From Sphingomonas sp. 28-66-16 (GTDB lineage Bacteria; Pseudomonadota; Alphaproteobacteria; Sphingomonadales; Sphingomonadaceae): a stretch of 64,000 nt of DNA. This document shows, in pieces, positions 38,289-58,689 of this stretch. Each line of letters starts with the position of its first letter. Positions within the stretch are counted from its first letter, which is position 1. The notes beneath the pieces are model-generated. The model had not been told where the DNA came from. It ran no database searches and saw only the letters and a list, made by a program, of their open reading frames with translations. The translations under genes were made by a program, and so were the position numbers. Location: positions 48,109-112,108 of the forward strand of contig NCGF01000008.1 of assembly GCA_002281485.1 (NCBI GenBank), in the 5' to 3' direction.

Positions 38289-41276
38289 ATGGCCACTCTT
38301 TCACCACCTGCACCACTGTCCCCGCCAATTCGCGCAATAATTGATGCGGGACCAGCGGCAGACGTCATTTTTCTGCCGACCGATGGCTACGGCACACCCG
38401 GACAGCTTAATTCGGCAGTCCTCAAGAAACTCGGTCTGCCGATTAAATTGCCGGGTGAGCGCGAACTCGGCGAAGGCTATGCGCTGACGTCGACTGACAA
38501 GGGTCTTATCTGCTTCGTTGTAACAGTCGTAGGCAGGCCCACGATCGAGGCGCTTGATACGAACTTCGCCAACGCGTTGCGGGATCCGCGGATCCAGCTC
38601 CAAGCCAGCCTCTGGGTGCCACTCATGGGGACAGGAACGGGCGGCCTTTCTCATATGGAAAGTTTCAAACTCATCCTCGAGCGGCTGACGGAATTCCCGC
38701 CTGTCAGAGATGGCCGAACATCTGCAGTTATCTCGATTCCCAAGGAGGTGACCGCGAAAGCTCGCGCGCGAATGCTCGCGGATACTGAGGAGGTCTCGGC
38801 TAAGCTCAACGCTGCACTTTTGAATAAATCGGAGCCTCCGTCACTGCCTTCGACGCAATCTGACAATGCTGAAACTTCATCAAGTGCACTGGATCTTCCC
38901 CGGACAACTGAGGTTCATGCGGTACTCGCGCTTGCTTCACAGATGTCACGCTCGCCGCAGGCCGAGCATGATTCTCTTTCAACCTCGCTTTTGTTTTTCG
39001 CGCTTGCAGAGGGCACCAGCACATCGGCACCCGGGGTCCTAAGTGTGGACCCGGCGGCGGAGACATTTGCCACGGCGGTGCACGAACTGGCCGGCCCGTT
39101 ATATGAGGTTGCTTGGATGGACTATTTCAAGTCCGACGAGCGAATTGAGCCGTTCGTAGGCTTGGACTTCACAATCAAACCGACCCCCAACGTCACAAGT
39201 GTACTTGTCGATGCCCACGCCCTTGTCGGCGGTGGCGAAGCGCCAATCGGTATCGATCAGTTGATCACTGCTCTGCTATGCTTCGAGAAGGGACGTCACC
39301 GCCGGGTGCTTGCGAACATGCAGGTCGATCCCGAACGTCTGCTCGCGGCATATCGCGATGCTCGGCTAGGGCGGGTAGCGGCTCGCTTTCAGAATGACGT
39401 GGCCAATATCGACGATCAGCTCGACTACGGTCGTTACGCAACTGCGATCCACGCATTTCTAACGAACAAGGATACCAAGGCGCCGCTCAGTATCAGTATT
39501 CAGGCACCGTGGGGCGGCGGCAAATCGACCTTGATGCATCTCTTACGGGAAGAACTTGACCCCGAGGAAGACAGGAACCGGTACAAAAGACTTTCGATCG
39601 CGGAGCTCGACAAGCTTCCCCGGCTTCTTCTCGATCATGTCGCGAAGGTGTTCGACACAGGCAAGCGCATCGAAATAAATCCGGATGTCCCCAACGCGGC
39701 TGATATGAAGCAGCGCCGTTGGACGATCTGGTTCAACGCTTGGAAGTACGAGACGACCGAGCAGCTCTGGGCTGGCCTCGTCGACGCAATCGTCTCCCAA
39801 GTGGCGGTGAGGCTCTCACCGTTGGAGCGCGAGAAGTTTCTCCTGAAACTTCAGCTCGCTAGGATCGATGACGGCATCGTTCGAAAGCGGATTTACGATC
39901 GTATTGCAACTACTTGGTGGAACAAGTCACGTGCGTGGGTGATCGGCGGCGGTGCAGCTGTCCTAAGCTTGTTTGGGCTCGGCACCGTAAAGCCTGTGCT
40001 GCCCAACCTTTTACAGCAGATCATCGCGCTGGGCACAGCCAATGGCTTTACCGGCGCGGTTGTGGCTCAGATCGCGCTGTCGATCTTCCTCATCGGAAAA
40101 TTCCTGTTCACTCAGAAAGAGACTAGGAGTGAGCCCGCCAAGTTCAGCCTTGCCGATATTATTAAGGTACCCGATTACGATAAGGGCGTCGGCGAACTGC
40201 ACCATGTTCATGCCGATCTGCACCGGGTCCTTGATATAGTGCCGCATCTTGATGCGGAGGGTCAGCCAGCACCGCTGGTGATTTTCATCGACGATCTCGA
40301 CCGGTGTTCGCCGGGTAAGGTGGCGAGCGTCGTCGAGGGGGTCAGCATGCTGCTAGCGACCAGTGATTACCGCTGCATGTTCGTTATCGGGATGGACCCG
40401 CAGATGGTGGCAGCAGCACTTGAGAAGGCGCATGAGGACGTCCGCGAAAAGCTGCCGAGCTACGAGCGCGCAGTGCCGCTCGGCTGGCGTTTTATGGACA
40501 AGTTTGTGCAGCTGCCGTTCACGCTGCCGCCAAGCGAGCCAGCCGAATTTGCGGCCTATGTCGCATGGCTTTCAGGCAGGGATGCATCGTTGCTTAAGCC
40601 TCAAGAAGTAGATTCCGCGGCCTCTGAACGAGGCCAGAGCGTCGATGTCATACGTTCACCACTAGCCCCTTCGGCGACGCCACTGGGCATCCAGCGCAGG
40701 GCTGCCGTAAGCGGTGCAGGATTTGCCCCGGACTCAGGTTCGCCAATCCCGACTACCGAACCGGCTATGCCCAATATAGACACGGGTTTCACCGAGAGCC
40801 GGGACGTGGGCGCGATCATCCGCAAGATCGCGATCTACTCGGTGGGCAATCCGCGCGAGATCAAGCGCATGGTGAATCTGGCGCGTTTCTACCTCACCTT
40901 GCGTGCTGCGCGGCGCGAGAAAGCGCCGGATTGGCGCGCACCAAGTCTCGATCAATATGCGCGCTGGATCGCCCTCACGCTTCGTTGGCCAGACATGTTG
41001 CGCTGGCTGCAATGGGGCGCGGACGAAGCGCACTGGCCGCCCGAAGAACTTGGGACCGCGCTGGTGGTTCGACGTCTACGAGCGCTGGAGCGGCACGGAG
41101 AGAAGGCCAACTCTCTCGATGCTTGGTGCGAAGCGTTAAAGACCGATCTAAACGTTCCCACGGAAGGCGTTAGCGATTGGGCACGCGATGCCAAGCTCTT
41201 CGAGTTCTTCACCGCGGAAACGAAGTTGTCATCAGAGAAACGTCTCTCGGACGCGGCTGGACGCGGGTTTTGGTAG
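38289..41276 (+). CDS. Macro-like/ClpN-like/KAP P-loop NTPase, probable defence protein
   Basis: This 995-residue protein has three parts. Residues 15 to 150 resemble a macro (ADP-ribose-binding) domain: ADVIFLPTDGYGTPGQLNSA and VPLMGTGTGGLSHMESFKLIL. Residues 205 to 360 look like a Clp N-terminal repeat domain (SLSTSLLFFALAEG, GIDQLITALLCF). From 380 onward is a KAP NTPase: Walker A APWGGGKST (406 to 414), two transmembrane helices near 550 to 572 and 590 to 607 inserted in the domain, Walker B LVIFIDDLDRC (663 to 673) and NPREIKRMVNLARFY. KAP NTPases are membrane-associated and recur in defence islands. The macro and ClpN assignments are weaker than the KAP one. Confidence 0.75.
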   Translation: MATLSPPAPLSPPIRAIIDAGPAADVIFLPTDGYGTPGQLNSAVLKKLGLPIKLPGERELGEGYALTSTDKGLICFVVTVVGRPTIEALDTNFANALRDPRIQLQASLWVPLMGTGTGGLSHMESFKLILERLTEFPPVRDGRTSAVISIPKEVTAKARARMLADTEEVSAKLNAALLNKSEPPSLPSTQSDNAETSSSALDLPRTTEVHAVLALASQMSRSPQAEHDSLSTSLLFFALAEGTSTSAPGVLSVDPAAETFATAVHELAGPLYEVAWMDYFKSDERIEPFVGLDFTIKPTPNVTSVLVDAHALVGGGEAPIGIDQLITALLCFEKGRHRRVLANMQVDPERLLAAYRDARLGRVAARFQNDVANIDDQLDYGRYATAIHAFLTNKDTKAPLSISIQAPWGGGKSTLMHLLREELDPEEDRNRYKRLSIAELDKLPRLLLDHVAKVFDTGKRIEINPDVPNAADMKQRRWTIWFNAWKYETTEQLWAGLVDAIVSQVAVRLSPLEREKFLLKLQLARIDDGIVRKRIYDRIATTWWNKSRAWVIGGGAAVLSLFGLGTVKPVLPNLLQQIIALGTANGFTGAVVAQIALSIFLIGKFLFTQKETRSEPAKFSLADIIKVPDYDKGVGELHHVHADLHRVLDIVPHLDAEGQPAPLVIFIDDLDRCSPGKVASVVEGVSMLLATSDYRCMFVIGMDPQMVAAALEKAHEDVREKLPSYERAVPLGWRFMDKFVQLPFTLPPSEPAEFAAYVAWLSGRDASLLKPQEVDSAASERGQSVDVIRSPLAPSATPLGIQRRAAVSGAGFAPDSGSPIPTTEPAMPNIDTGFTESRDVGAIIRKIAIYSVGNPREIKRMVNLARFYLTLRAARREKAPDWRAPSLDQYARWIALTLRWPDMLRWLQWGADEAHWPPEELGTALVVRRLRALERHGEKANSLDAWCEALKTDLNVPTEGVSDWARDAKLFEFFTAETKLSSEKRLSDAAGRGFW

Positions 41277-47159: not shown

Positions 47160-47699
47160 ATGACAAGTCTGACAATCGTGCACATCGAAGATGAGTACAG
47201 CGATTTCCTCAGTCTCACGACAACGCTTAAGACCTTCATCGAGTCGCATTGGCACTCGACACACGGCACGCCAGTGATCGCGGCGCGCAGAATTCTGGCC
47301 GAAAGCCAGGAGAAGCCGCCCTCTTGGATTGCCTTCGAGCTGATCGTCAAGCAGCGGCCCGAGCAGACGTTCCGGTGGATCTTCGTGCGCGATGCGCTGC
47401 TGCCGGAGGAGGTCCGAGCCTATATGGAAGGACGGATCGTCTTCATCTTCGACGTGCTTCGGCCCGACGAGAGCGGCACCACGATGCGCGTTTCGCTCGC
47501 CGAGACGCTGCGTTCGATCGAGGGCATCAACGTGCCCAGCGACGATGTAGTCGTCTACACGGCGTACCAGGGGACGGGGATCGACGCGATCGCGCCAGAA
47601 CTGCTGGCGGTCATCGGCCACCGCATCCGCAAGGAAAACGACTTCGAGCTCGACGATTTCCTGTCGGGCGTCGTGCTCGAATGTATCGAAAATGGCTAA
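47160..47699 (+). CDS. Receiver-like protein
   Basis: The 179-residue protein resembles a stand-alone receiver domain. IVHIEDEYSD gives the acidic pair (Asp11 and neighbours), IVFIFDVLRPDESG gives the likely phospho-acceptor Asp98, and VVVYTAYQG gives the conserved Thr134. About 45 extra residues lie between the first and third strands, more than in standard receivers, and no clear conserved lysine follows. The ATG at 47160 is used; a TTG at 47145 is open. It follows the kinase-like gene by 18 bases and overlaps the cyclase by 8 bases, so it is the probable link between the two. Confidence 0.65.
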   Translation: MTSLTIVHIEDEYSDFLSLTTTLKTFIESHWHSTHGTPVIAARRILAESQEKPPSWIAFELIVKQRPEQTFRWIFVRDALLPEEVRAYMEGRIVFIFDVLRPDESGTTMRVSLAETLRSIEGINVPSDDVVVYTAYQGTGIDAIAPELLAVIGHRIRKENDFELDDFLSGVVLECIENG

Positions 47700-49047
47700 C
47701 TCGCTCTCCCGACTGATCCTTGGCGCGGAGGCTTGCCCGGTCGAGGAATGGCGAAGTTTTGCGCTTCTCGACCCGGCGAAGAAGGCCAGCCGCATCCAGC
47801 TGCTGCGGGATCCGCTGAAGAATGTCGTGTTCCGGGACCAGCAGATTTCCGCAGTCTTTGGGTATTTGCTCGACGACGGAAAAGCGCACCTGGTATATTT
47901 CTGGGACAAGGAGTTGCGCGGCATTAATTGGCGCAACGTCGACGAGCAGCAAGAAAGGTCATCGCTTCTGAAATTTGGCTCGGCGCTCGGGCGCCTGCAC
48001 GACCATAATCCAAGTCTTATCAAGTCGCTCGACTTTATGGACGAAGGCGGCCTCGCACCCGATGCCGGGTTTCGCGAGCAGCATGCGGACTATAATCTCT
48101 ACTGGCTACGGTTCGAGGATCTCAAGTTTGTCTGTCTCTACAAGAAGGCCGGACTTATGACCGCTGTCGGGCAGTTGAGTTCGCTCGGCGTCCAGGAATG
48201 CCTCGAATTTCACAACGATTTCTTCCGGCTGCGATCCCCGGTATGGAATGCGATACCGATACGGTTCCTGCTGAACGCGCAGGAACGCGATCACGAGTCC
48301 GTGCGCCGGATGCTGCTGCATCCGCGCTGTTTCAATCCCGAAGAGGAAACGCCGCCCGACAGCTTCCTGTGGCCGTGGCAATATTGCATCTGCCTCGAGC
48401 ATAAGAAGGCGGTCTCTTACCGGGCCAAAACGACCACCTCGCTCGTCTTCGATCTGCGCAAGTCGACGATTGCGCTTGAACAGCTGAGCAGCCGCGACAT
48501 CGCCGAATTCTCGCCCTTCATCAAAAGCGTAGTCGAAATGGCCAGGACCGCGGTCGCGCGGCATGGCGGTTTTTTCGACAAGGACACGGGCGACGGCATC
48601 GTCGCCCATTTTGTGAATTTCGACGCCGACGCGACCCGGGTCAATTTCGAGAGCGCGCCGAAGCGCGCCTTTGACGCTGCGGTATCGATCGTCAAACAGG
48701 CGAGCGCGATCTGCAACGCATTTCAGTCCAAGCTGCGGCTTGGTGTCGGCGGTCTGGGCGGCGCGGTCGGCATTCATACCGGGAGCGCCGTCTGGCTCGT
48801 GGATGACAAGCAGATTCGGGCGATCGGCGACAGCGCCATTATTGCGTCGCGGCTGTGCAATGAAGCGCCACAACAGGGGATTTTCGTGTCGAACTCCGAA
48901 TATCTTGAGCTCGTCGCCCAGCTTCCGGCGGAAATCGGACAGCGTTTCGCCCGCAGGAGCTATTCGGGCAAGGAAGTCTCAGGGGGAGCCGATCTGTTCG
49001 GCCACGCCATCGAAATCCGCGATTTTGCGTCGGGAACAGAGCAATGA
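47692..49047 (+). CDS. Class III nucleotide cyclase, Pycsar-like (PycC)
   Basis: The 451-residue protein has an unassigned N-terminal half (1 to 240) and a C-terminal class III cyclase domain. Metal-binding aspartates are visible as Asp254 in LVFDLRKST and Asp301 in DKDTGDGIVAHF. The segment RAIGDSAIIASRL (376 to 388) keeps the transition-state Arg387, but has Ile where the usual Asn stands and Arg376 where adenylate cyclases have Asp. In Pycsar, cyclases make cCMP or cUMP on phage infection. The downstream PycTM-type gene overlaps by four bases (ATGA), which supports this role. The nucleotide made is not known. Confidence 0.85.
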   Translation: MANSLSRLILGAEACPVEEWRSFALLDPAKKASRIQLLRDPLKNVVFRDQQISAVFGYLLDDGKAHLVYFWDKELRGINWRNVDEQQERSSLLKFGSALGRLHDHNPSLIKSLDFMDEGGLAPDAGFREQHADYNLYWLRFEDLKFVCLYKKAGLMTAVGQLSSLGVQECLEFHNDFFRLRSPVWNAIPIRFLLNAQERDHESVRRMLLHPRCFNPEEETPPDSFLWPWQYCICLEHKKAVSYRAKTTTSLVFDLRKSTIALEQLSSRDIAEFSPFIKSVVEMARTAVARHGGFFDKDTGDGIVAHFVNFDADATRVNFESAPKRAFDAAVSIVKQASAICNAFQSKLRLGVGGLGGAVGIHTGSAVWLVDDKQIRAIGDSAIIASRLCNEAPQQGIFVSNSEYLELVAQLPAEIGQRFARRSYSGKEVSGGADLFGHAIEIRDFASGTEQ

Positions 49048-49538
49048 CCGCCAAAGACCTTTACGAAAATTGCCGCAGCTGGTTGCAATTCGCCGAAACC
49101 AAGAACGGTTTCGCGCTCGCTTTTTGCGGGGCGGTCATTGCCGCCGAAGTGAGCCTGCTGTCCGGCGTCGAGCCGATGTTCAAGCCGTTCGTGCTGCTTT
49201 CGATGCTGCTCATGACGGTCGCGGCAATCTGCTCGCTGATTAGCTTCGTTCCGCAGGACAAGGTATCGCCCGGTGTGAACGCGGGGAGAGCGACCCCGAA
49301 GGGAATAGTCTTTTTCGGGCATATCGCGATGCATGATGGGGCCGGTTTTGTCGCACGCGCATCACAAGTGTTCGGCGTGGAGGAAAAGGACAGCCTGTCG
49401 ATCGAGCTGCTCGACCAGTGCCACACCCTGTCGGTCATAACAGTCCGGAAGCTGAGACTGTTTTACGCCTCGGTGGTGATCGCCGGGCTAGGCTTCGTAT
49501 TGCCGCTGGTGGCAGCAGCCGGCCGGTGGATCTGCTAG
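49044..49538 (+). CDS. Pycsar effector, PycTM-like membrane protein
   Basis: The 164-residue protein has the Pycsar effector (DUF5706) layout: FAETKNGFALAFCGAVIA leading into TM1 (about 22 to 42), TM2 (47 to 68), a cytoplasmic part with FFGHIAMHDG and LLDQCHTLSVITVRKLRLF, and TM3 (138 to 158). PycTM proteins respond to cyclic pyrimidine nucleotides by disrupting the inner membrane, which kills the infected cell. It overlaps the cyclase by ATGA and ends the operon. Confidence 0.88.
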   Translation: MTAKDLYENCRSWLQFAETKNGFALAFCGAVIAAEVSLLSGVEPMFKPFVLLSMLLMTVAAICSLISFVPQDKVSPGVNAGRATPKGIVFFGHIAMHDGAGFVARASQVFGVEEKDSLSIELLDQCHTLSVITVRKLRLFYASVVIAGLGFVLPLVAAAGRWIC

Positions 49539-49818: not shown

Positions 49819-51195
49819 ATGATGGGCGAGCGGACGGTGGCGCAGGAGGCGCTGTTTTACAGCTTCAACCTTGAGCGACATGTGCCGGCGGATCATTTGT
49901 TGCGATCGATCGATCGGTTCGTGGACCTGTCCGATATCCGGGAGCACCTGCGGCCGTTCTACAGCGAAACGGGGCGACCATCGATCGATCCCGAGTTGCT
50001 GATCCGGATGCTGATCATCGGCTATTGCATGGGCATCCGGTCCGAGCGGCGTCTGTGCGACGAGGTGCATCTCAACCTTGCCTATCGCTGGTTCTGCCGA
50101 CTGGGGCTCGAGGGCGATGTGCCCGACCACTCGACCTTCTCGAAGAACCGCCACGGCCGTTTTCGAGACAGCGACCTGTTGCGGCATCTGTTTGAGACCA
50201 CGGTCGCGCGGTGCATGGCCGAGGGGCTGGTCGGCGGCGAAGGCTTCGCGATCGATGCCAGCCTGGTCCGCGCCGATGTCAACCGGCAGCACGCCGTCGC
50301 TCGTCCCGAGCAGCTGCCGGATGCCGCCACCAGCCATGCCGTGCGCGAGTATCTGGCGGTGCTCGACGATGCCGCCTTTGGTGGCGCGACTCCCGTCCCA
50401 CCCAAGCAGCTGGCGGTCGCCGATCCTGCCGCCCGCTGGACCGCCGCGACGCGCGAACGGGCCTTCTTTGCTTACTCGACCAACTATCTGATCGACTTGC
50501 GTCACGCCGTGATCGTCGATGTCGAGGCGACCACATCGATCCGGCAGGCCGAAGTGACGGCGCAGCGCCGGATGATCGAGCGCACGCAGACCCGGTTCGG
50601 CCTTTGGCCCGCGCGGCTCGCGGCCGATACCGGCTATGGCGATGCGGCCAACCTTGCCTGGCTGGTCGAGGAGAAGGGCATCGCGCCGCACATCCCGGTG
50701 TTCGACAAGTCCGCCCGCGCCGACGGCACGTTCGAACGCTCAGCCTTCAGTTACGACATCCGGCGCGATGTCTATACCTGTCCGGGCGGCGAGGAGTTGC
50801 GGCGCTACTGGCATGCGGGACGCGCCGCCAAGGAACAGCCGCCGGTCGACGGCCTCTATAAATACCGCGCGCGCAAGGCGGCATGCGACGCCTGCAAACT
50901 TCGATCGCAATGCTGCCCGAACGGACCACACCGCAAAATCCTGCGCTCGGTCCACGAAGGCGCGCGTGACCTGGCCCGCGATATCGCCAGCACCGATGCC
51001 TATGTCACGTCACGCCGCGAGCGGAAGAAAGTCGAAATGCTGTTCGCGCACCTCAAACGCATCCTCAAGCTCGACCGCCTGCGCCTGCGGGGACCAAATG
51101 GCGCAAAAGACGAGTTCGTCCTCGCCGCCACCGCTCAGAACCTTCGCAAGATCGCCAAGATCGTCCCGATGCCGGCACAGACCGTGCCCGCCTGA
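49819..51195 (+). CDS. IS1182-family transposase
   Basis: The 458-residue DDE transposase has an N-terminal domain with RPSIDPELLIRMLIIGYCMGIRSERRLCDEV and VPDHSTFSKNRHGRF, typical of IS1182. Catalytic residues fit Asp146 (AIDASLVRAD), Asp270 (AADTGYGD) and Glu406 (VEMLFAHLKRI). A Cys cluster (CDACKLRSQCC) lies near residue 360. The frame is full length with both inverted repeats present, so it may be active. It separates the Pycsar-like operon from the ubiquitin-like operon. Confidence 0.93.
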   Translation: MMGERTVAQEALFYSFNLERHVPADHLLRSIDRFVDLSDIREHLRPFYSETGRPSIDPELLIRMLIIGYCMGIRSERRLCDEVHLNLAYRWFCRLGLEGDVPDHSTFSKNRHGRFRDSDLLRHLFETTVARCMAEGLVGGEGFAIDASLVRADVNRQHAVARPEQLPDAATSHAVREYLAVLDDAAFGGATPVPPKQLAVADPAARWTAATRERAFFAYSTNYLIDLRHAVIVDVEATTSIRQAEVTAQRRMIERTQTRFGLWPARLAADTGYGDAANLAWLVEEKGIAPHIPVFDKSARADGTFERSAFSYDIRRDVYTCPGGEELRRYWHAGRAAKEQPPVDGLYKYRARKAACDACKLRSQCCPNGPHRKILRSVHEGARDLARDIASTDAYVTSRRERKKVEMLFAHLKRILKLDRLRLRGPNGAKDEFVLAATAQNLRKIAKIVPMPAQTVPA

Positions 51196-51271: not shown

Positions 51272-51417
51272 GGCCGATTGCCGACTGTCAGCTCCTTGGT
51301 GCTTCTCCGCGGAAAGCTGCCGTTGAGTTGTCAGCGCAAGATGCGCGATGATCGAGTCGGGGCACACGCCGACCTGTTTTCCAAATAATTCATTCTGCCG
51401 TTCCGGTTTCAGTTTTC

Positions 51418-52245
51418 ATGGCGATTACCCCTGAAACGCATTTATACTGGTGCTTCAAAAGGGAGGACAAGTTGATCGCCCCGCTCACCCGGAAGAAGAA
51501 GGACGGGACGAAGTATACGCGCCCCGACAATGTCGAGGGGCTCCTCCCCGCGCTCGGCGAACTGCCACGCGATGGACTGCTCGAGCGGGCCCGGATCCGC
51601 AATCGCAAGGATCTTGGCTATGTGCCTAGCGAATGTCTGGTGCATTTCATCCGCGCCAGTCGCCACGAGAACGCCCACGCCTGGTTCGACCGCCTCTACA
51701 AGGTGCTCGCCGAGCGCGTCATGCGGGCGGTGCCGATTGCGTCGGGTGGCACTGCGTCCGCCACCGACGAGCGGATCCGCGATGCGGTCTTCGACCGCTT
51801 CGTCGAGTTGCTCGCCAAGGACCGCGCGGAGCCGGATGACAGGCTCGATTTCTTCGAGGCGCGGTTCGATCTCGCCATCAAGCGGCTCCGGCTCGACGCC
51901 CAGGAGCGGGTGTGGCGCGAAACCAACCGCGGCGATTCCATGGACGACGAGGAAGGCGGCGCCGCCGAGGCGGCAGCCACCGCCGGCACGACCAACCCTC
52001 TGGACGCGGAAATTTTTTCCGATCCGCTTTTCCGGGAGAGGCTCTACGTCGCGATTGACGCCCTGCCACCGGAACAAAGCAGGACCATGCATCTCCTGCT
52101 GATCGGGTGGCAGATCCATTCGAGCGACCCGTCGGTCATGACGATTGCGAAGGCCCTGGACTGCTCGGATCGGTCGGTTCGCAACTATCGGGACCGGGCG
52201 CTAAAGACGCTCGGTGCCCTGTTCAATCCTGGGGATGACGAATGA
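51418..52245 (+). CDS. Sigma-70-like transcription factor
   Basis: The 275-residue protein resembles an alternative sigma factor. Residues 85 to 170 have a region-2-like helical pattern (AWFDRLYKVLAERVMRA, DRFVELLAKD, FDLAIKRLRLDAQERVWRET). After an acidic/Ala linker, residues 215 to 265 have region-4 character: LPPEQSRTMHLL and the helix-turn-helix VMTIAKALDCSDRSVRNYRDRALKTL. It leads a run of six plus-strand genes and may drive their transcription. No named subgroup is recognised. Confidence 0.65.
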   Translation: MAITPETHLYWCFKREDKLIAPLTRKKKDGTKYTRPDNVEGLLPALGELPRDGLLERARIRNRKDLGYVPSECLVHFIRASRHENAHAWFDRLYKVLAERVMRAVPIASGGTASATDERIRDAVFDRFVELLAKDRAEPDDRLDFFEARFDLAIKRLRLDAQERVWRETNRGDSMDDEEGGAAEAAATAGTTNPLDAEIFSDPLFRERLYVAIDALPPEQSRTMHLLLIGWQIHSSDPSVMTIAKALDCSDRSVRNYRDRALKTLGALFNPGDDE

Positions 52246-52829
52246 CCGCCACCAACCCGCCGCTCACGCTCGACGCCGTGCTCGACCTTTTCCAGATGGA
52301 GGAGCTCCATGACGGCGATGTCCTCGCCCGCTACGTCGCGGCGCACCCTCAGTTCGCGCCGCAGCTGATCGACTTCTCCCGTCTGATCGCCACGCCCGAC
52401 ACCGAGGACGAGGGCGGCCTGACCGCCACCGAGCAGTCCCGCATCGACGCTGCGTGGATCACCCATCAGGCGGCCCGACCCGAGGGCGCGACTGGCGCTG
52501 ATCCCTTGGTTCGCCTTTCCGGCGACGTGGGCAAGGCTCTCGCCGTGAAGCTCGGCGTGCCGCGCCAGGTGATTACCTGCATCCGCGAGCACAGGGTGCT
52601 CGCCTCCAGCGTCCCGACGCCCGTAACGCGCGAGCTTTCGGTGGCGCTGGGCGTCCCTCAGGCGCATGTGATAGCCGCCATGGCGCGATCTCCGGCGGGG
52701 ATGGCGGCGACGAGAAGCTACAAGTCGGACGGTCCACCTGTGTCGGTCGCGCAGACCACGTTCGAGCAGGTGCTGAAGGACGCTGGCGTATCCGAAGCCG
52801 ACCGCGTTCGGCTGCTGGCCGACGCCTGA
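52242..52829 (+). CDS. Hypothetical protein coupled to the sigma-like gene
   Basis: The 195-residue soluble protein has no family I recognise. The first third is acidic and helical (LTLDAVLDLFQMEELHDGDVLARYV). The middle (LSGDVGKALAVKLGVPRQVITCIREHRV) and later part (VTRELSVALGVPQAHVIAAMA) are two similar short helical units. It overlaps the sigma-like gene by ATGA, the usual place of an anti-sigma factor, and precedes the IrrE-type peptidase gene by three bases. A regulatory role is inference. Confidence 0.6.
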   Translation: MTATNPPLTLDAVLDLFQMEELHDGDVLARYVAAHPQFAPQLIDFSRLIATPDTEDEGGLTATEQSRIDAAWITHQAARPEGATGADPLVRLSGDVGKALAVKLGVPRQVITCIREHRVLASSVPTPVTRELSVALGVPQAHVIAAMARSPAGMAATRSYKSDGPPVSVAQTTFEQVLKDAGVSEADRVRLLADA

Positions 52830-52832
52830 CCC

Positions 52833-55800
52833 TTGGACGCGATCGAGCTAGGGCGCCGACGCGCGGCGGAACTGCACGCAAGCGCGATTGCGCGCGGACT
52901 CGATCCGACGGATCCTTACGCCTTCGCGGTCGCGATCGCGAAGGATTGCGGCCTCGACGTTGATTCCGCGAACCCGGGCGCCACGGTCCTAGACAACGGA
53001 CGCGCGACGCTGGTTCCGGAGGATGACCTCATCATCCATGAGAACGTCGGGTCGCTCTTCGAGCAGGCGTTCCTCGTCGCCCATGAGATCGGGCATCACG
53101 AGCTCGGGGACGGAACCTCTTCCCCGACGGTCACCGAGGCGGATTCGGCCCGTGGTTCGGAGCCATCGCCGACTGGCATCGACCGCGTCGTGGACTACGG
53201 CCGCCGGCAACGGCGCGAGGTCCAGATGGACCTCTTCGGCCGCGAACTCCTCCTTCCGCGCGAAGTGGTATGCCGCCTCCACCTCGAAGATGGTCTGACC
53301 GCATCCGCCATCGCCGAGCGGATGCACGCCCCGTTCGACGTCGTGGCGCAGCAGCTGTTCGACGGCCTCCTGCTCCCCGTGATCGAACCCGACGACAAGG
53401 TCCGCGAGACCCATCCGCTGAACGAGGCCCAAGCGACCGCTGCGGCCCATCGCGGCGGCCCCTACTTGCTCGAGGCGGGGCCCGGCACCGGCAAGACCCA
53501 GACCTTGACCGCGCGGGTCGTCCAGCTGCTCGACGAAGGCGTTGATCCCAAGCGAATCCTAGTGCTGACCTATTCGAACAAAGCGGCCGGCGAGATGGCC
53601 GACCGCATCGCGGCCGAGCGTCCCGAGAAGGCTGCGGCGATGTGGATCGGCACGTTCCACGCCTTTGGGCTCGACCTCATCCGACGTCTCAGCGCCGAGT
53701 TCTCCCTGCCCGACGATCCGCGGTTGATGGACCGGGTCGAGGCGGTCGAGCTGCTCGAGCGCGAATTCCCGAAGCTCGAGCTCGAACACTACCAGGACCT
53801 CTACGACCCGACCCGGCTGATCGGCGACATCCTCGCGGCGATATCACGCGCGAAGGACGAAGTGGTCACCGCTGAGGAGTATGCGCGGCACGCGGAAACC
53901 ATGCGCGTCGCCGCGGTCGGAGACGAGGCACGGACGACCGAGGCGCTCAAGTCCGCCGAGGTGGCGCAGGTCTATGCGCTATACGAGAGCATCAAGCGCG
54001 AACGGCGCGCGGTCGACTTCGGCGATCTAGTGTCGCTCCCCGTCGGACTCCTCGAGCGGTGCCCCGACATCGCCGCGAAGCTCGGCGGAATGTATGATCA
54101 TCTGCTGGTCGACGAGTATCAGGACGTCAACCGCGCCAGCGTTCGGCTGCTCAAGGCGATCCGCCCCACCGGCGATAACCTCTGGGTCGTCGGCGACGCG
54201 CGGCAGTCCATTTACCGGTTCCGGGGCGCGTCCCCGATCAGCACCTCCAAGTTCACGACGGAGGATTTCCCGGGCGCCGGGTCGGGTAGGTTGAAGATCA
54301 ACTACCGCTCGTTCGACGAGATCGTCACAGCCTACTCCGCATTCGCGGTCAGAATGACGGCGAGCACGACGGACACGCTGCTCAAGGCGAACCGTGGCCA
54401 CTCTGGGATCCCGATCGAGCTCAGGACGCGCGCCATGAAGGACGAACAGTCGGTCGCGATCGCCGACTGCATCGCCGAGATGCACGCGGCCGGTGACGCC
54501 TACCGCGACCAAGCCGTCCTGTGCACCGGCAACGAGCGGCTCGGCGTGATCGCCCGGGACCTCGAGCGCATGGGTATCCCCGTTCTATTCCTCGGCAGCC
54601 TGTTCGAGCGCGGGGAGGTCAAGGACCTCTTGTCGCTACTGTCGCTGCTCGCCGACCGCCGGGCGATGGGCCTCGTCCGCGCCGCCGGCATGACGGAATT
54701 TGCCATGTCGCTCGACGACGTCGGCACCGTGCTCGCCACGCTGCGCGACGACGAGCGGGAGCCGCTCGATTGGCTAGACGCGCGGCTGGACCTGCCGATC
54801 TCGGCGGACGGCAATGCCGCGTTGGACAGGCTCGCGGGGGCGCTTGAGGGCTTCGACGCCGACACGCCGCCTTGGCGAGCCCTCGCCGTGATCCTCCTCG
54901 ACCGGACCCGCATCGCCGCCACCATCGCCGTGGCGCAGTCGGTCGGCGAACGCAGCCAGGGAATCGCGCTTTGGCAGCTGATGAACTTCCTGCGCGTGCA
55001 GCCGCGCGAGCAGGGAAAGGCCGTTCCCCGCCTGCTGGACCGGATCAGGCGGCTTGTGGCGATCGGCGACGATCGCGACCTGCGACAGTTGCCTGCCGCC
55101 GCACAGGGACTTGACGCGGTGCGGCTCATGACGATCCATGGTGCCAAGGGCCTCGAGTTCCGGTGCGTCCATCTCCCGGGCCTCAACCAGGACACGCTCC
55201 CAAGTCCGTCGAAGGCGCCTGCATGCCTCCCGCCGGAGGGCGTCATCGCAGGATTGACCGGCGACGTGAAGACGGCTTTGCGCGATGGCGACGCGGAGGA
55301 GCGGGAGTGCCTCTTCTACGTCGCCCTGTCGCGCGCCCGAGACCGGCTCGTCATGTATGCGGCCACGGAGAAGGCCAACCACTCTGCCAGACCCCTGTCC
55401 GAATTCCTCGGCCGCCTCGGGACGGGCGTGGCGCGGTCCGCGCCCGACCTGATCCGCAAGCTGCCTCCCGCCCCGGAGGACGAACCGGTCAAGCTCGTGA
55501 TCGACGGGACGATCCGGCTGCGGGATTCGCAGGTGGCAATGCTGGACAAGGACAAGTGCAAGCGACGCTTCTTCTACACACATGTGCTTGGCATCGGGGG
55601 ACGCCGGAGCGAGACCGACTACATGAGGATGCACGAGGCGGCCCGGTCCGTCGTCCGCGCGGCGGTGCGGGACGGACTCGACCTGTCGGATGACGCGCAG
55701 CTCCGTGCCGCCGTCGAACGGGCCTGCGACGATCATGGCCTCGACACGCCTGGCAGCTTCGCGGAGCTGCGGGCGATGGCGATCACGCTGGTTACGCGGT

Positions 55801-56237
55801 TCCGACAATCGCGCCTGTTCCACCGCGCCGAGACCCCGGCAGCGGTGCCGCTCAGCATCGGCGCCGATCAGATCGTCTTCAGCGCCGACGATGTCCTCGT
55901 CGATGCCAAGGGCGTCCGGATCTACCGGCGCATCCGCACGGGAGCATACCGCAAGTCGGACACCGAGAACCTCGGCGTGGCCACCGCGCTGCTCGCCCTC
56001 GCGGAGAACGCACCTAGTGCCGCCGTGGAAGTGGTCCACCTGATGAGCGATCAGGTCACTGCGCTCGAGATGACGGCGCGCGTTCTCGGCAACCGGCGTG
56101 AGCTGTTGGACAAGGTGATCGCGGGGATCCGCGACGGTTCGTTCCCCGCATCCCCGTCGCAGCGCGTCTGCCCGGGATGCCCCGCCTTCTTCATCTGTGG
56201 GCCTGTCCCCGGCGGATCGCTGCGGAAAGTTTTCTGA
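52833..56237 (+). CDS. IrrE-type peptidase / UvrD helicase / Fe-S nuclease-like fusion
   Basis: This 1134-residue protein joins three parts. Residues 1 to 190 are an ImmA/IrrE-type metallopeptidase with HEIGH (84 to 88). From about 195 is an SF1A UvrD/Rep helicase: Walker A GPGTGKT (216 to 222), TYSNKAAGEM, LLVDEYQDVN, GDARQSIYRFRGA and VALSRARDRL. The end (about 890 to 1134) resembles AddB/Cas4-type nucleases, with Cys909 (DKCKRRFFY) and Cys1113, Cys1116 and Cys1122 as Fe-S ligands; but the nuclease motif reads YRRIRTG where DxKTG is normal, so cutting is doubtful. The start is TTG, three bases after the preceding stop. Confidence 0.8.
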   Translation: MDAIELGRRRAAELHASAIARGLDPTDPYAFAVAIAKDCGLDVDSANPGATVLDNGRATLVPEDDLIIHENVGSLFEQAFLVAHEIGHHELGDGTSSPTVTEADSARGSEPSPTGIDRVVDYGRRQRREVQMDLFGRELLLPREVVCRLHLEDGLTASAIAERMHAPFDVVAQQLFDGLLLPVIEPDDKVRETHPLNEAQATAAAHRGGPYLLEAGPGTGKTQTLTARVVQLLDEGVDPKRILVLTYSNKAAGEMADRIAAERPEKAAAMWIGTFHAFGLDLIRRLSAEFSLPDDPRLMDRVEAVELLEREFPKLELEHYQDLYDPTRLIGDILAAISRAKDEVVTAEEYARHAETMRVAAVGDEARTTEALKSAEVAQVYALYESIKRERRAVDFGDLVSLPVGLLERCPDIAAKLGGMYDHLLVDEYQDVNRASVRLLKAIRPTGDNLWVVGDARQSIYRFRGASPISTSKFTTEDFPGAGSGRLKINYRSFDEIVTAYSAFAVRMTASTTDTLLKANRGHSGIPIELRTRAMKDEQSVAIADCIAEMHAAGDAYRDQAVLCTGNERLGVIARDLERMGIPVLFLGSLFERGEVKDLLSLLSLLADRRAMGLVRAAGMTEFAMSLDDVGTVLATLRDDEREPLDWLDARLDLPISADGNAALDRLAGALEGFDADTPPWRALAVILLDRTRIAATIAVAQSVGERSQGIALWQLMNFLRVQPREQGKAVPRLLDRIRRLVAIGDDRDLRQLPAAAQGLDAVRLMTIHGAKGLEFRCVHLPGLNQDTLPSPSKAPACLPPEGVIAGLTGDVKTALRDGDAEERECLFYVALSRARDRLVMYAATEKANHSARPLSEFLGRLGTGVARSAPDLIRKLPPAPEDEPVKLVIDGTIRLRDSQVAMLDKDKCKRRFFYTHVLGIGGRRSETDYMRMHEAARSVVRAAVRDGLDLSDDAQLRAAVERACDDHGLDTPGSFAELRAMAITLVTRFRQSRLFHRAETPAAVPLSIGADQIVFSADDVLVDAKGVRIYRRIRTGAYRKSDTENLGVATALLALAENAPSAAVEVVHLMSDQVTALEMTARVLGNRRELLDKVIAGIRDGSFPASPSQRVCPGCPAFFICGPVPGGSLRKVF

Positions 56238-56273
56238 TCACCTTTCCGGTCGGCAGCGTCCGTTCCGATTGTC

Positions 56274-56309
56274 CCTTCGTGACCGGGTTGGCCCGGCTGG
56301 ACACGAAGG
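56274..56309 (+). promoter_or_regulatory. Hairpin covering the ribosome-binding site of the ubiquitin-like gene
   Basis: CCTTCGTG (56274 to 56281) pairs with CACGAAGG (56302 to 56309), enclosing a second hairpin CCGGG-TTGG-CCCGG (56283 to 56296). The right arm contains most of the GAAGGA Shine-Dalgarno site that lies 9 bases before the ATG at 56320. The fold would hide the site and could limit translation unless melted or bound. No T-tract follows, so it is unlikely to be a terminator. Confidence 0.6.
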
Positions 56310-56319
56310 AAAAAGTAAG

Positions 56320-57072
56320 ATGAACACACCCAAACTCCCCGAATACGACGACGTCGGCGACGCGATCCGCGAGGACCGCCCCCTGCTGGCGGCAAAGGCC
56401 TACCGCATCCAGTTCGCGCTCGACGGCCTCGACTTCCGCCCGCTCGGCATCGCCGACCCGATCCCGGTGGGCCGCCAGATTCTCGAGGCCGCGGGCCTCG
56501 AGCCCGACCGCGGCTACAGCCTCTTCGCGATCCTCGATACCGGCGATTTCGAGGATGTGCGCCTCAACGAGACGTTCGACCTCCGCGGGGTCGGCGCGGA
56601 GCGGTTCATCGCCTTCCTGACGGACCGCGACTTCAAGTTCGAGGTCAACGACCACGAGGAACGCTGGGGCAAGCCGACGATCAGCGGCCGGATCCTCGAG
56701 CAACTCGCCAAGCCGGAGCCCGACGAGGCGGTCTTCCGTGAGGTTCGCGGCGGGACGGACGTCCTGATCGAGCCCGCGATGCTGGTCGATCTCAGCGCGC
56801 CGGGCATCGAGCGCTTCTATAATGCGAAGCGCCCCGCGGCGGAGATCGAGATCATCGTAAACACCCGTCCGCGTACCGTGACGGGGCCGGATGTGACCTT
56901 CGAGCAGATCGTCGAACTGGCCTTCCCCGGTCCGCACGAGCCGAACGTCGTCTTCTCGATGACCTACCGCAAGGCGGCCTCGACGCCGCATGCCGGGGAG
57001 CTTGGCGCCCACGGCTCGGTCACCATCAAGCAGGGGACGGTCTTCAATGTCACGCGCACTGTTCAGTCGTAA
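56320..57072 (+). CDS. Multi-ubiquitin-like protein, three beta-grasp units
   Basis: The 250-residue protein contains three ubiquitin-like units at about 26 to 100, 102 to 170 and 174 to 249. The first shows the bacterial multiubiquitin pattern PVGRQILEAAGLEPDRGYSLFAI with LNETFDLRGVGAERFI; the others are diverged versions (ISGRILEQLAKPEP, FEQIVELAFP). The C-terminus is VTRTVQS with no Gly-Gly, so activation would need processing or a different chemistry. The ATG at 56320 has GAAGGA nine bases before it, inside a hairpin. It overlaps the E1-like gene by 26 bases, as expected for a conjugation pair. Confidence 0.82.
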   Translation: MNTPKLPEYDDVGDAIREDRPLLAAKAYRIQFALDGLDFRPLGIADPIPVGRQILEAAGLEPDRGYSLFAILDTGDFEDVRLNETFDLRGVGAERFIAFLTDRDFKFEVNDHEERWGKPTISGRILEQLAKPEPDEAVFREVRGGTDVLIEPAMLVDLSAPGIERFYNAKRPAAEIEIIVNTRPRTVTGPDVTFEQIVELAFPGPHEPNVVFSMTYRKAASTPHAGELGAHGSVTIKQGTVFNVTRTVQS

Positions 57073-58231
57073 CGCCGACCTCGCGAAGCTGCGCGAGGAG
57101 GGCTATTTCGTCCAGGTCGTCGGAGGGTTCCTCGTCATGCGCGAGGTTCCCTACGTCGACGCCAACCGCAAGGTGCGCAAGGGGACCCTGATTTCGAGCC
57201 TGGCGCTGGCTGGCGACCAGACCAGGCCGCCCGACACGCACGTCGTGCATTTCGACGGCGAATACCCTTGCTTCGCCGACGGGACGCGCATCGCCGCGAT
57301 CGCCAACCAGACGACCCACTTCGACCTTGGCCACGGCCTGACCGCCGAGCATGCGTTCTCCAGCAAGCCCGATGGCGGCTACCGCGACTATCACGACAAG
57401 TTGACGACATACGCGTCGATCATCGCGGGGCCGGCCGCGGTGCTCGATGCCACAGCAACGCCCCGGCCCTATCGCGCGCTCGACGAGGAGGAGGACGTCG
57501 ACAGCGTGTTCAACTACGTCGAGACCGCGTCGGACCGCGTTGGCATCGGCGCATTGACGGCGAAGCTGGCGGGGCACCGGGTCGCTATCATCGGGCTCGG
57601 CGGCTCGGGCAGCTACATCCTCGACATGGTCGCGAAGACGCCGGTGGCGGAGATCCGCATCCTCGACGCCGACGAGTTCCTCCAGCACAATGCCTTCAGG
57701 GCACCTGGTGCGCCGAGCCTCGGCGAACTCCGCGAAGCGCCGCTCAAGGTGGACCACTTCAAGGGGATCTACGACCGCATGCACCGCGGCATCACTGCGG
57801 TGCCGGTCGCGATCGCGCCGGGCAATCTTGATCTGCTCGACGGCATCGACTTCGCGTTCCTGAGTCTCGACGCCGGCGAGGCCAAGGCGGCGCTGGTCGA
57901 GCGGCTGCACGCGAGGGGCGTCGACTTCATTGACATCGGCATGGGTCTGGAGCTCGGCGAGCGCGGCCTCAGCGGGATACTTCGCGTGACAACCAGCACC
58001 GCCGGGACACGGGAGACCGTCGCGTCGCATGATCGGATCCCGCTCGCCGGGGGAGGTGCCGGCGACATCTACGCGTCCAACATCCAGGTCGCCGACCTCA
58101 ACGCGCTGAACGCGGTGTTCGCGGTCATCAAGTGGAAGAAGCTGTGCGGCTTCTACTGCGACCTCGAGAACGAGCATCATTCGACCTATACGCTCGACGG
58201 GAACATGCTGCTGAACGAAGACCAGTCGTGA
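57047..58231 (+). CDS. E1-like ThiF-family adenylyltransferase
   Basis: The 394-residue protein has an N-terminal domain (1 to 165, DUF6791-like) and a ThiF/E1 adenylation domain: VAIIGLGGSGSYILD with the nucleotide loop GLGGSGSY (183 to 190), ILDADEF with its Asp, and QHNAFRAPGA with Asn215 and Arg218. E1-like enzymes adenylate the C-terminus of a ubiquitin-like protein. No CxxC zinc pairs are seen; Cys367 and Cys371 near the end, or Cys75, are possible thioester or structural residues. The ATG at 57047 lies inside the ubiquitin-like gene; its stop shares one base with the next ATG. Confidence 0.85.
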   Translation: MSRALFSRNADLAKLREEGYFVQVVGGFLVMREVPYVDANRKVRKGTLISSLALAGDQTRPPDTHVVHFDGEYPCFADGTRIAAIANQTTHFDLGHGLTAEHAFSSKPDGGYRDYHDKLTTYASIIAGPAAVLDATATPRPYRALDEEEDVDSVFNYVETASDRVGIGALTAKLAGHRVAIIGLGGSGSYILDMVAKTPVAEIRILDADEFLQHNAFRAPGAPSLGELREAPLKVDHFKGIYDRMHRGITAVPVAIAPGNLDLLDGIDFAFLSLDAGEAKAALVERLHARGVDFIDIGMGLELGERGLSGILRVTTSTAGTRETVASHDRIPLAGGGAGDIYASNIQVADLNALNAVFAVIKWKKLCGFYCDLENEHHSTYTLDGNMLLNEDQS

Positions 58232-58689
58232 TGCGGCATTCCGTCCTCGAACACCGGTTCGTCGAGACGTTCCCGGAAACGCTTGAACCTGGCGTGCTAT
58301 ACGTATCGCTGGAATTCGGCAGCGCCGCCCACAGCTGCTGCTGCGGCTGCGGCGAGGAGGTCGTGACCCCGCTAACGCCGACGGACTGGAATATTACCTA
58401 TGACGGCGAGACGATCACGCTGCACCCGTCGGTCGGCAGTTGGACGCTCCCATGCCGCTCGCACTACGTGATCCGTCGCAACCGGGTGATCGAGGCGCCT
58501 CCTTGGTCGGATGCGGAAGTCGCGGCTGAACGTCGACGCGACCGGCGGGCGAAAGCGGCGCATTATGGTTTGGATACAGCTTCCGATGTGGCAGTATCAG
58601 AGACAGATGTCGAAGCATCTCAAACACTACCAGCCGCCTCCGGATGGAAAAACCGCTTCCTCGGTTGGCTGTTACGATCAAAATCTTAG
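58231..58689 (+). CDS. DUF6527-like Cys-rich protein of the ubiquitin-like operon
   Basis: The 152-residue protein carries HSCCCGCGEEV (Cys36, 37, 38 and 40) and, further on, LPCRSHYVI (Cys75, His78), a plausible zinc site. The layout fits DUF6527 proteins encoded next to multiubiquitin and ThiF genes; their function is not established. The last 50 residues are polar and end in a basic Trp/Leu segment. It starts on the last base of the E1-like gene (TGATG). A role as E2- or E3-like partner would be inference. Confidence 0.7.
   Translation: MRHSVLEHRFVETFPETLEPGVLYVSLEFGSAAHSCCCGCGEEVVTPLTPTDWNITYDGETITLHPSVGSWTLPCRSHYVIRRNRVIEAPPWSDAEVAAERRRDRRAKAAHYGLDTASDVAVSETDVEASQTLPAASGWKNRFLGWLLRSKS

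Follow-up and report, generated by a model that had tools for sequence, protein, structure and literature searches.

A row of six genes on the forward strand, at positions 51418–58689 of a 64,000-nucleotide stretch of Sphingomonas sp. 28-66-16 DNA (contig NCGF01000008.1; the whole stretch is referred to below as the window), is best explained, with a probability of about 60%, as an effector operon equipped with an alarm, in which the first three genes (g1–g3) would encode a sigma factor, an anti-sigma factor and a sensor-protease, and the last three (g4–g6) a set of ubiquitin-like (Ubl) genes under their command. The product of g1 is sigma-like, a promoter-like element is conserved ahead of the Ubl genes, the linkage of the two halves is fixed, and the protease, helicase and iron-sulfur (Fe-S) residues of g3 are intact. 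As a dedicated sigma factor of the extracytoplasmic function (ECF) type, g1 is predicted from the sequence to transcribe g4–g6 from the element at 56243–56271, while g2 would act as a cytosolic anti-sigma factor keeping g1 inactive. The UvrD and Fe-S domains of g3 may engage damaged, single-stranded or phage DNA, upon which its IrrE metalloprotease domain would cleave g2, by analogy with PprI-DdrO and CapP-CapH, and the freed g1 would turn on the operon. The g1 of the window probably also amplifies its own expression, a similar element lying before its gene.

All six genes were confirmed to be present head to tail. They encode a divergent protein resembling ECF-type sigma factors (g1, 51472–52245), a protein of 195 aa that is the putative anti-sigma factor and putative substrate of the g3 protease domain (g2, 52242–52829), a fusion of an IrrE protease, a UvrD helicase and an AddB-like Fe-S domain (g3, 52833–56237), a protein with three Ubl domains (polyUbl; g4, 56320–57072), an E1-like adenylating enzyme with an N-terminal DUF6791 (g5, 57047–58231) and a DUF6527 metal-binding protein (g6, 58231–58689). 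Overlaps of 4 nt (ATGA), 26 nt and 1 nt join g1 to g2, g4 to g5 and g5 to g6, respectively. An initial annotation of this DNA, made from the letters alone, had listed six same-strand genes with overlaps or short gaps; its list was right, and only the start of g1 was revised. TTG 51472 is the likely start, because ATG 51418, the less likely longer reading, falls within a promoter-like element at 51400–51427, and because several relatives of g1 have the codon equivalent to TTG 51472 as their only or shorter start.

Loci were collected with g3 as the query in genomes and plasmids, with g2, and with PF14452 or g4; the plasmid loci were hand-picked from 93 and 102 records with a match so as to be diverse. 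A total of 69 were annotated with purpose-built profiles, leaving out short stretches round single matches (L001–L012, L041–L061, L091–L096 and others), L028, whose contig ends within g3, and L029, with the helicase part only. The three genes g1, g2 and g3 (hereafter the cassette) were present together in 44 of the 69, the window's genome included and L024 and L097 being probably the same strain, and g2 sat between g1 and g3 in 44/44. Ubl genes followed g3 directly in 42 of these 44 loci, in L089 as a BilA fragment only; the two exceptions were L078, with IS66 genes after g3, and L079, at a record edge. Most loci were found through g3, so that the cassette was present by selection, but the Ubl operon was not. 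The neighborhood survey, set beforehand as the test that could separate the first three genes from the last three, thus left their co-occurrence standing. A polyUbl with a DUF6791-E1 followed in 21 of the 42 loci, 20 of them with DUF6527 (L013 stops at a contig edge), a polyUbl with another E1 in 14, DUF6527 being present in 11 of these, and Bil genes in 7. The arrangement recurred across three classes of proteobacteria (alpha-, beta- and gamma-) and in Leptolyngbya, a cyanobacterium, with g3 identity of about 50% among loci of conserved order from Pseudomonadota to Leptolyngbya, and is not due to chance. In a sample of 398 genomes, g2 was found in 6 and PF14452 in 15; all 6 were among the 15, with the two genes within about 4 kb of each other (p = 2.5e-8 for the five genomes other than the window's own).

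The cassette was upstream of Bil genes in ten fetched loci (L083–L085, L087–L090, L158, L172, L173), the last three of which were fetched later, and all four BilABCD models were matched in L084 and L085. A search with the BilD family matched 81 of 372 genomes, most of them weakly and probably through generic ThiF proteins. Among the five best of these genomes, which were fetched, the cassette was present in L158 and absent from L159 and L160, the latter with an IrrE-type gene nearby, and two loci were partial or incomplete. A BilD relative was present in 34 plasmid records; at least nine of these also had a g3 match no more than a few kb away, and fetching revealed a tenth. Other genes for DNA-processing proteins were observed beside these operons. 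A PD-(D/E)XK nuclease gene and a UvrD helicase gene (AddAB-like) lay directly after the polyUbl operon, downstream of DUF6527, in L032, L033 and L074, this pair being present in rhizobial plasmids whether or not the cassette is there too. An SbcCD-like pair (calcineurin-type exonuclease and ATPase gene) lay downstream of the E1 gene in L085, L086 and L172, and genes with WYL and WGR domains together with SbcCD-like genes lay upstream of g1 in L084 and L173, beside cassette-bearing BIL loci.

The gap between g3 and g4 (or BilA) contained a promoter-like element with the consensus TTWCCGGT-N15-CGATTR, which in the window reads TTTCCGGT-N15-CGATTG (56243–56271). Counted as TTNCCG, exactly 17 nt and CGATT, the element was exact in 28 of the 42 gaps, had at most one mismatch in 35 and at most two in 39, against 0.00, 0.38 and 3.40 expected from dinucleotide shuffles. 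In 23 polyUbl loci lacking the cassette the corresponding numbers were 0, 1 and 3 (shuffles 0.02, 0.18 and 3.88). Outside the counted set, it was exact in L172 (17 nt) and, despite the IS66 genes next to it, in L078 (16 nt), and had at most one mismatch in L173. The consensus was matched exactly only once in the window's genome, at the g3–g4 gap; within the window, two matches with one mismatch accompany it. The element before g1, GTTCCGGT-N14-CGATTA (51400–51427), has one mismatch to TTNCCG/CGATT and a spacing of 16 nt; for a pattern written from this site itself, the expected number of occurrences in the window with up to one mismatch is 0.03. With up to one mismatch and 16–18 nt, 13 of 44 loci, sphingomonads and several Bil loci among them, had an element ahead of g1 (1.58 expected). 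The operon and g1 elements shared a variant within a locus, TTTCCGGGTT/GCGATCAA in L083 and TTCCGATT/GCGACT in L088 and L089. A dedicated sigma factor that serves a small regulon would be expected to show such a distribution, and g1 very probably controls the operon, in agreement with one reading given in the initial annotation.

The assignment of g1 was strengthened by its relatives. TIGR02937 (sigma70-ECF) matched 15 and Sigma70_r4_2 matched 14 of 18 aligned members (window included) at E ≤ 0.01, so that homology to sigma regions 2 and 4 was found through the relatives, and a cognate -35/-10-type promoter is suggested by the 35 of 42 gaps with at most one mismatch. On these sequence grounds g1 is ECF-sigma-like. 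In L081, g1 is in pieces.

Three Pfam domains were recognized in g3: Peptidase_M78/IrrE, UvrD helicase and PDDEXK_1. Its conservation was followed in an alignment of 27 sequences, the window's included, some of which begin inside the protein. The zinc-protease motif HEIGH (53082–53096, forward strand; residues 84–88) had H84, E85, G87 and H88 identical in 27/27, and E129 and E138 were equally invariant, so that every sequence has HEXXH and a Glu as presumed third zinc ligand, as in the IrrE family. The Walker A/B residues and D427, E428, Q430 and D431 were invariant in 27/27, as were the four Fe-S cysteines of AddB type (C909, C1113, C1116 and C1122). These cysteines mark an AddB-like Fe-S and degenerate nuclease region (55554–56198, forward strand; residues 908–1122) that gives the PDDEXK_1 match. 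There, no D/E-x-K was conserved over the 27 rows, two of which have such a string at unconserved places, and RRxRTG was present in most rows. Because the PD-(D/E)xK residues are not conserved in the alignment, g3 is unlikely to cut DNA; the intact protease beside a dead nuclease fits a sensor-protease, and a reading of g3 as a DNA-cutting effector was not supported. No toxin domain was found in g3 by the Pfam search. The g3 of L031 reads in two frames. Membership in Gabija or DRT systems was rejected, since the PADLOC matches of g3 (best 25 of 56 families) were confined to the helicase region, and so was a phage origin, since g3 had no match at E 1e-60 in 50,697 phage records. None of six pattern matches in viral contigs encoded a relative.

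No credible family was found for g2, with only three isolated weak Pfam matches among 20 members. Robbsia (L035) has g2, g3 and Ubl genes, the latter divergent, and the place of g1 is taken there by a protein with no significant similarity to g1 (best E against sigma models 0.11). In this locus, g3 (54% identity) and the C-terminal part of g2 are kept. The similarity to other g2 proteins is restricted to the C-terminal two thirds, and all nine plasmid matches begin at residue 52 or beyond of 171. The N-terminus of g2, g1 and the promoter element differ together while g3 is kept, which suggests, for this single case, that the N-terminal part of g2 faces the sigma factor and the C-terminal part faces g3. 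A plasmid search for relatives of the Robbsia g2 and g1-like proteins returned only C-terminal g2 matches and the proteins themselves, and 299 genomes gave three matches that belonged to cassette loci already known, together with four weak matches (E 0.001–0.009). An inverted repeat, TTTAGAGT-GTT-TACTCTAAA, was seen by eye between the divergent Ubl and g2-g3 genes (L035, 4662–4812); the Robbsia arrangement is possibly a different mode of control.

Among the Ubl genes, g4 has three Multi_ubiq (PF14452) repeats (E 1.2e-52), in line with the two to three tandem Ubl domains of a polyUbl, and relatives with solved structures (9cd2, 8u38, 9d5b, 9d59). Three-domain Ubl proteins reportedly form filaments. 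DUF6791 (PF20590, E 1.7e-56) is joined to ThiF (PF00899) in g5, which matches NF004802 above its cut-off (E 3.6e-192) and has no match to JAB. Over 13 rows, g5 keeps the glycine-rich and D/N/R/K residues of what we take to be the motif of the nucleotide site. The product of g6 belongs to DUF6527 (PF20137, E 8.2e-25), has three Cys and one His that never vary among 14 sequences, and aligns with the DUF6527 gene of the Synechocystis plasmid pSYSX with shared Cys/His residues. All four families that the initial annotation had put forward for profile searches (PF14452, ThiF, DUF6791 and DUF6527) were matched in g4–g6. The 26-nt overlap of g4 and g5 (57047–57072) was kept in 8/8 annotated relatives with the identical six-gene order; its constant length from proteobacteria to Leptolyngbya suggests coupled translation or a constrained polyUbl tail.

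These three genes resemble the polyUbl operons of row 6e in Iyer et al., 2006 (PMC1779556), with a polyUbl, an E1 with a distinct domain in the place of JAB, and the metal-binding protein Y. Judged from its position, the pSYSX gene would be sll6052 of that paper. The “domain X” of the paper would correspond to DUF6791. No E2-like gene or match was found in g4–g6, and the paper gives an inactive E2/RWD-like protein for the row 6e type, not for every member. Canonical conjugation is doubtful for this subtype, judged from the sequences, because the polyUbl ends in Ser without Gly and the E1 lacks an invariant Cys. The terminal Ser of g4 was invariant in 12/12, with no Gly at the C-terminus, and no Cys was invariant in 13 g5 sequences, C75 being nearly so and lying outside the ThiF domain; neither the C-terminal Gly of a canonical modifier nor the catalytic Cys of its E1 was thus found in g4 and g5, and the label of a conjugation operon given by the initial annotation is unproven, a chemistry of a non-canonical kind being possible. 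An assignment to BIL operons was rejected for lack of a match to any Bil model, and one to Bub operons for lack of an E2-like or JAB match in g4–g6; other cassette loci have both. A Bub operon is taken here, in part from names in the PDB, to have an E2-like protein and a JAB-E1 (BubCD). A search of the literature for DUF6527 found no paper, and in the literature searched no study was found that had tested a polyUbl of the window's type against phage. Chambers et al., 2026 (PMC13373217) list BIL in their Discussion among known anti-phage pathways and state that such protection is yet to be demonstrated for Bub operons.

What precedes polyUbl operons elsewhere was examined in two samples, which gave 25 PF14452 loci (E ≤ 0.001) beyond the window's own (11 of 385 for the class and 14 of 398 for the phylum). 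The cassette preceded seven of the 25 (L062, L067, L097–L101). An IrrE-type protease with HExxH was nearby in 13 of the other 18 (L063–L066, L069–L072, L129, L130, L134, L135, L137), four of them with a detected CapH-like helix-turn-helix (HTH) gene (L064, L069, L072, L137). CapK/CapS-like genes were seen in one locus (L136) and an Xre/RES pair in two (L068 and L132); none of these kinds of genes was seen in L131 and L133. On plasmids, HTH and ImmA/IrrE genes diverged from the polyUbl gene in Synechocystis pSYSX and Bradyrhizobium 62B, an Acidithiobacillus locus had a WYL gene, and an Enterobacter locus had a kinase-like gene paired with a winged HTH gene, read as CapK/CapS. Since other polyUbl operons have IrrE-protease, WYL or CapK/CapS-like genes in this position, g1–g3 behaves like a swappable controller.

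Several observations weigh against an alarm of sigma factor, anti-sigma factor and sensor-protease. The window's g1 gave weak matches to sigma-70 region 4 and sigma-factor models, below the Pfam and NCBIfam cut-offs, and in L085 an IS256 gene lies inside g1. Both roles proposed for g2, as anti-sigma factor and as protease substrate, are inferred for a protein with no recognized fold, and the Robbsia swap is one case only. DNA damage or phage as the signal, and phage defense as the output, are likewise inferred. The count of the motif is post hoc, since it was made on gaps in which the motif had already been spotted by eye, although the excess goes far beyond what a choice of this kind could produce. 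Only five loci lay outside the counted set (L078, L172, L173, L158 and L035), and of these L158 and the Robbsia L035 had no recognizable element before the operon. The poorest of the counted gaps were those of L085, L086, L087, L088, L089 and L101, and in L098 the element is exact with a spacing of 16 nt instead of 17. The window's genome has eight further matches with a single mismatch, including two that fall within g1 and g3; a reversed control pattern gives one. Autoregulation is not universal either, as no element is visible upstream of g1 in most of the 44 loci.

The most serious competitor, although an unlikely one, is that g2 is a CapH-like DNA-binding repressor cleaved by the IrrE domain of g3, with g1 merely an activator of the same promoters. 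CapH+CapP and PprI-DdrO both act through cleavage of a repressor, and the middle of g2 (LGVPRxV...P..xL..LA..L) gave the impression, in alignments, of an HTH-like segment; HTH models, however, matched g2 inconsistently, once and weakly among 20 members. Since g1 is sigma-like and has a cognate -35/-10-type element, a repressor is not needed, and the N-terminal part of g2 in Robbsia changes together with the replaced g1. Somewhat less probable still is that all six genes form one defense machine, with g3 an effector helicase-nuclease acting on foreign DNA and regulated by Ubl modification. The fixed linkage of g1–g3 to the Ubl genes would be explained, and the UvrD region does resemble the defense helicases GajB and RTasHel, yet among the best 25 of 56 PADLOC families the similarity to GajB is to the helicase only. 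The loss of conserved nuclease residues described above, the promoter-like element that the Ubl operon has of its own, and the other controllers that fill the cassette's place at other polyUbl loci all speak against an effector role for g3.

A toxin-antitoxin-like module that merely stabilizes a mobile cassette, as was proposed for pairs of COG2856 and Xre genes, is improbable for g1–g3. That proposal came from the finding that 70% of multiubiquitin genes adjoin such COG2856/HTH pairs, which were interpreted in 2016 as toxin-antitoxin loci (PMC4963859), but CapH+CapP was later shown to be a regulator (PMC13373217); moreover, the promoter-like element before the operon is tied to the cassette, and g3 has no toxin domain in Pfam. 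Chance neighborhood of g1–g3 and g4–g6, brought about by mobile elements, is hardly credible: the locus does lie in a mobile island, directly after a transposase gene (49819–51195), but the survey refutes this view, with the order kept across Pseudomonadota and Leptolyngbya and with several different Ubl partners. The sigma, anti-sigma and sensor-protease alarm is thus preferred, and the earlier interpretation stands in part, as regards the unit, its control by a sigma factor and its mobile setting, but not as regards a DNA-cutting effector, and with conjugation left unproven.

The location on a conjugative element, as first proposed, agrees with the genes of the window, which encode a coupling protein of a type IV secretion system, TrbE/VirB-type and T2SSE-type ATPases and a DUF3363 relaxase, with other defense-like genes nearby. 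The transposase encoded directly upstream of the cassette is of DDE type and may have removed earlier upstream sequence. Directly upstream of this transposase gene is a Pycsar-like pair (47692–49538), composed of a cyclase-like protein with weak PycC matches and a PycTM effector (E 1e-22). A KAP-family P-loop NTPase with QatA/PifA-like PADLOC matches (38289–41276) is a possible further defense gene on the island.

The second half of the locus is already known, polyUbl operons having been described in 2006 (PMC1779556) and their IrrE-gene neighbors in 2016 (PMC4963859). The terms “sigma”, “UvrD” and “helicase” are all absent from the main text of PMC1779556. In a non-exhaustive search of the best-ranked literature matches, neither the g1–g3 cassette, its promoter nor its link to BIL was found, and the six-gene combination, which the initial annotation took to be undescribed, was not found either. 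There is a somewhat better than even chance that the cassette represents an unnamed class of immune-operon controller, in which an ECF sigma factor is held by a soluble anti-sigma factor that is cut by a helicase-fused metalloprotease, a single protein thereby combining the sensing of DNA with the triggering of transcription, and which commands several Ubl systems, including the antiphage BIL, in proteobacteria and a cyanobacterium through one conserved promoter code. By the count of Chambers et al., 2026 (PMC13373217), at least 266 of 544 Bub operons are without a named controller. If true, the proposal would add a controller whose mode of activation is a sigma factor and not the lifting of a repressor, would place the poorly understood polyUbl operons under control shared with some antiphage BIL operons, would make the promoter code usable for finding further members of such regulons, and would offer a case, open to experiment, in which a protease and its DNA sensor are joined in one chain.

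Among known systems, CapH+CapP and PprI/IrrE-DdrO are similar to g1–g3 in having an IrrE-family zinc protease beside an immune or stress operon and an adjacent partner gene. PprI is bound and activated by single-stranded DNA (ssDNA) to cleave DdrO (PMC10904395), and CapP is likewise ssDNA-activated and cleaves CapH (PMC13373217). Because both are ssDNA-activated, repressor-cleaving proteases of the IrrE family, the cleavage of g2 by g3 and a DNA signal are proposed by analogy; sensing of DNA damage is expected to be common to them and g1–g3, whose controller probably responds to it. Unlike in CapH+CapP, the g3 protease is fused to a UvrD helicase and an Fe-S domain, its partner g2 has no recognizable HTH in 20 sequences, and the output would depend on a dedicated sigma factor and the promoter that goes with it. 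According to Chambers et al., 2026 (PMC13373217), CapW or CapH+CapP accompany 219 of 544 Bub operons and CapK+CapS another 59 (231 in a wider search), all three being responsive to DNA damage. CapK+CapS and CapW are similar to g1–g3 as swappable genes upstream of Ubl and other immune operons, and genes resembling them occupy the same position at polyUbl loci; unlike g1–g3, they are repressors under the control of a kinase or of ssDNA binding, with no sigma factor (PMC13373217).

In the ten fetched loci named above, the Bil genes of antiphage BilABCD operons share with the window the same cassette upstream, the window having the polyUbl, DUF6791-E1 and DUF6527 genes in place of those for Bil proteins. 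In g3, the UvrD-type helicase is common to AddA/AddB, RecB and the Gabija protein GajB, and the AddB-like Fe-S cysteines are kept as well, but g3 differs from all of these in its N-terminal protease and in the loss of the nuclease residues. Those pairs of ECF sigma and anti-sigma factors in which regulated proteolysis brings about release are similar to the cassette in the adjacent, overlapping genes for the sigma factor and a small partner, in the protease encoded in the same row and in the conserved -35/-10-type element. The cassette differs from them in having no recognized membrane protein and in a protease that is an IrrE-helicase fusion.

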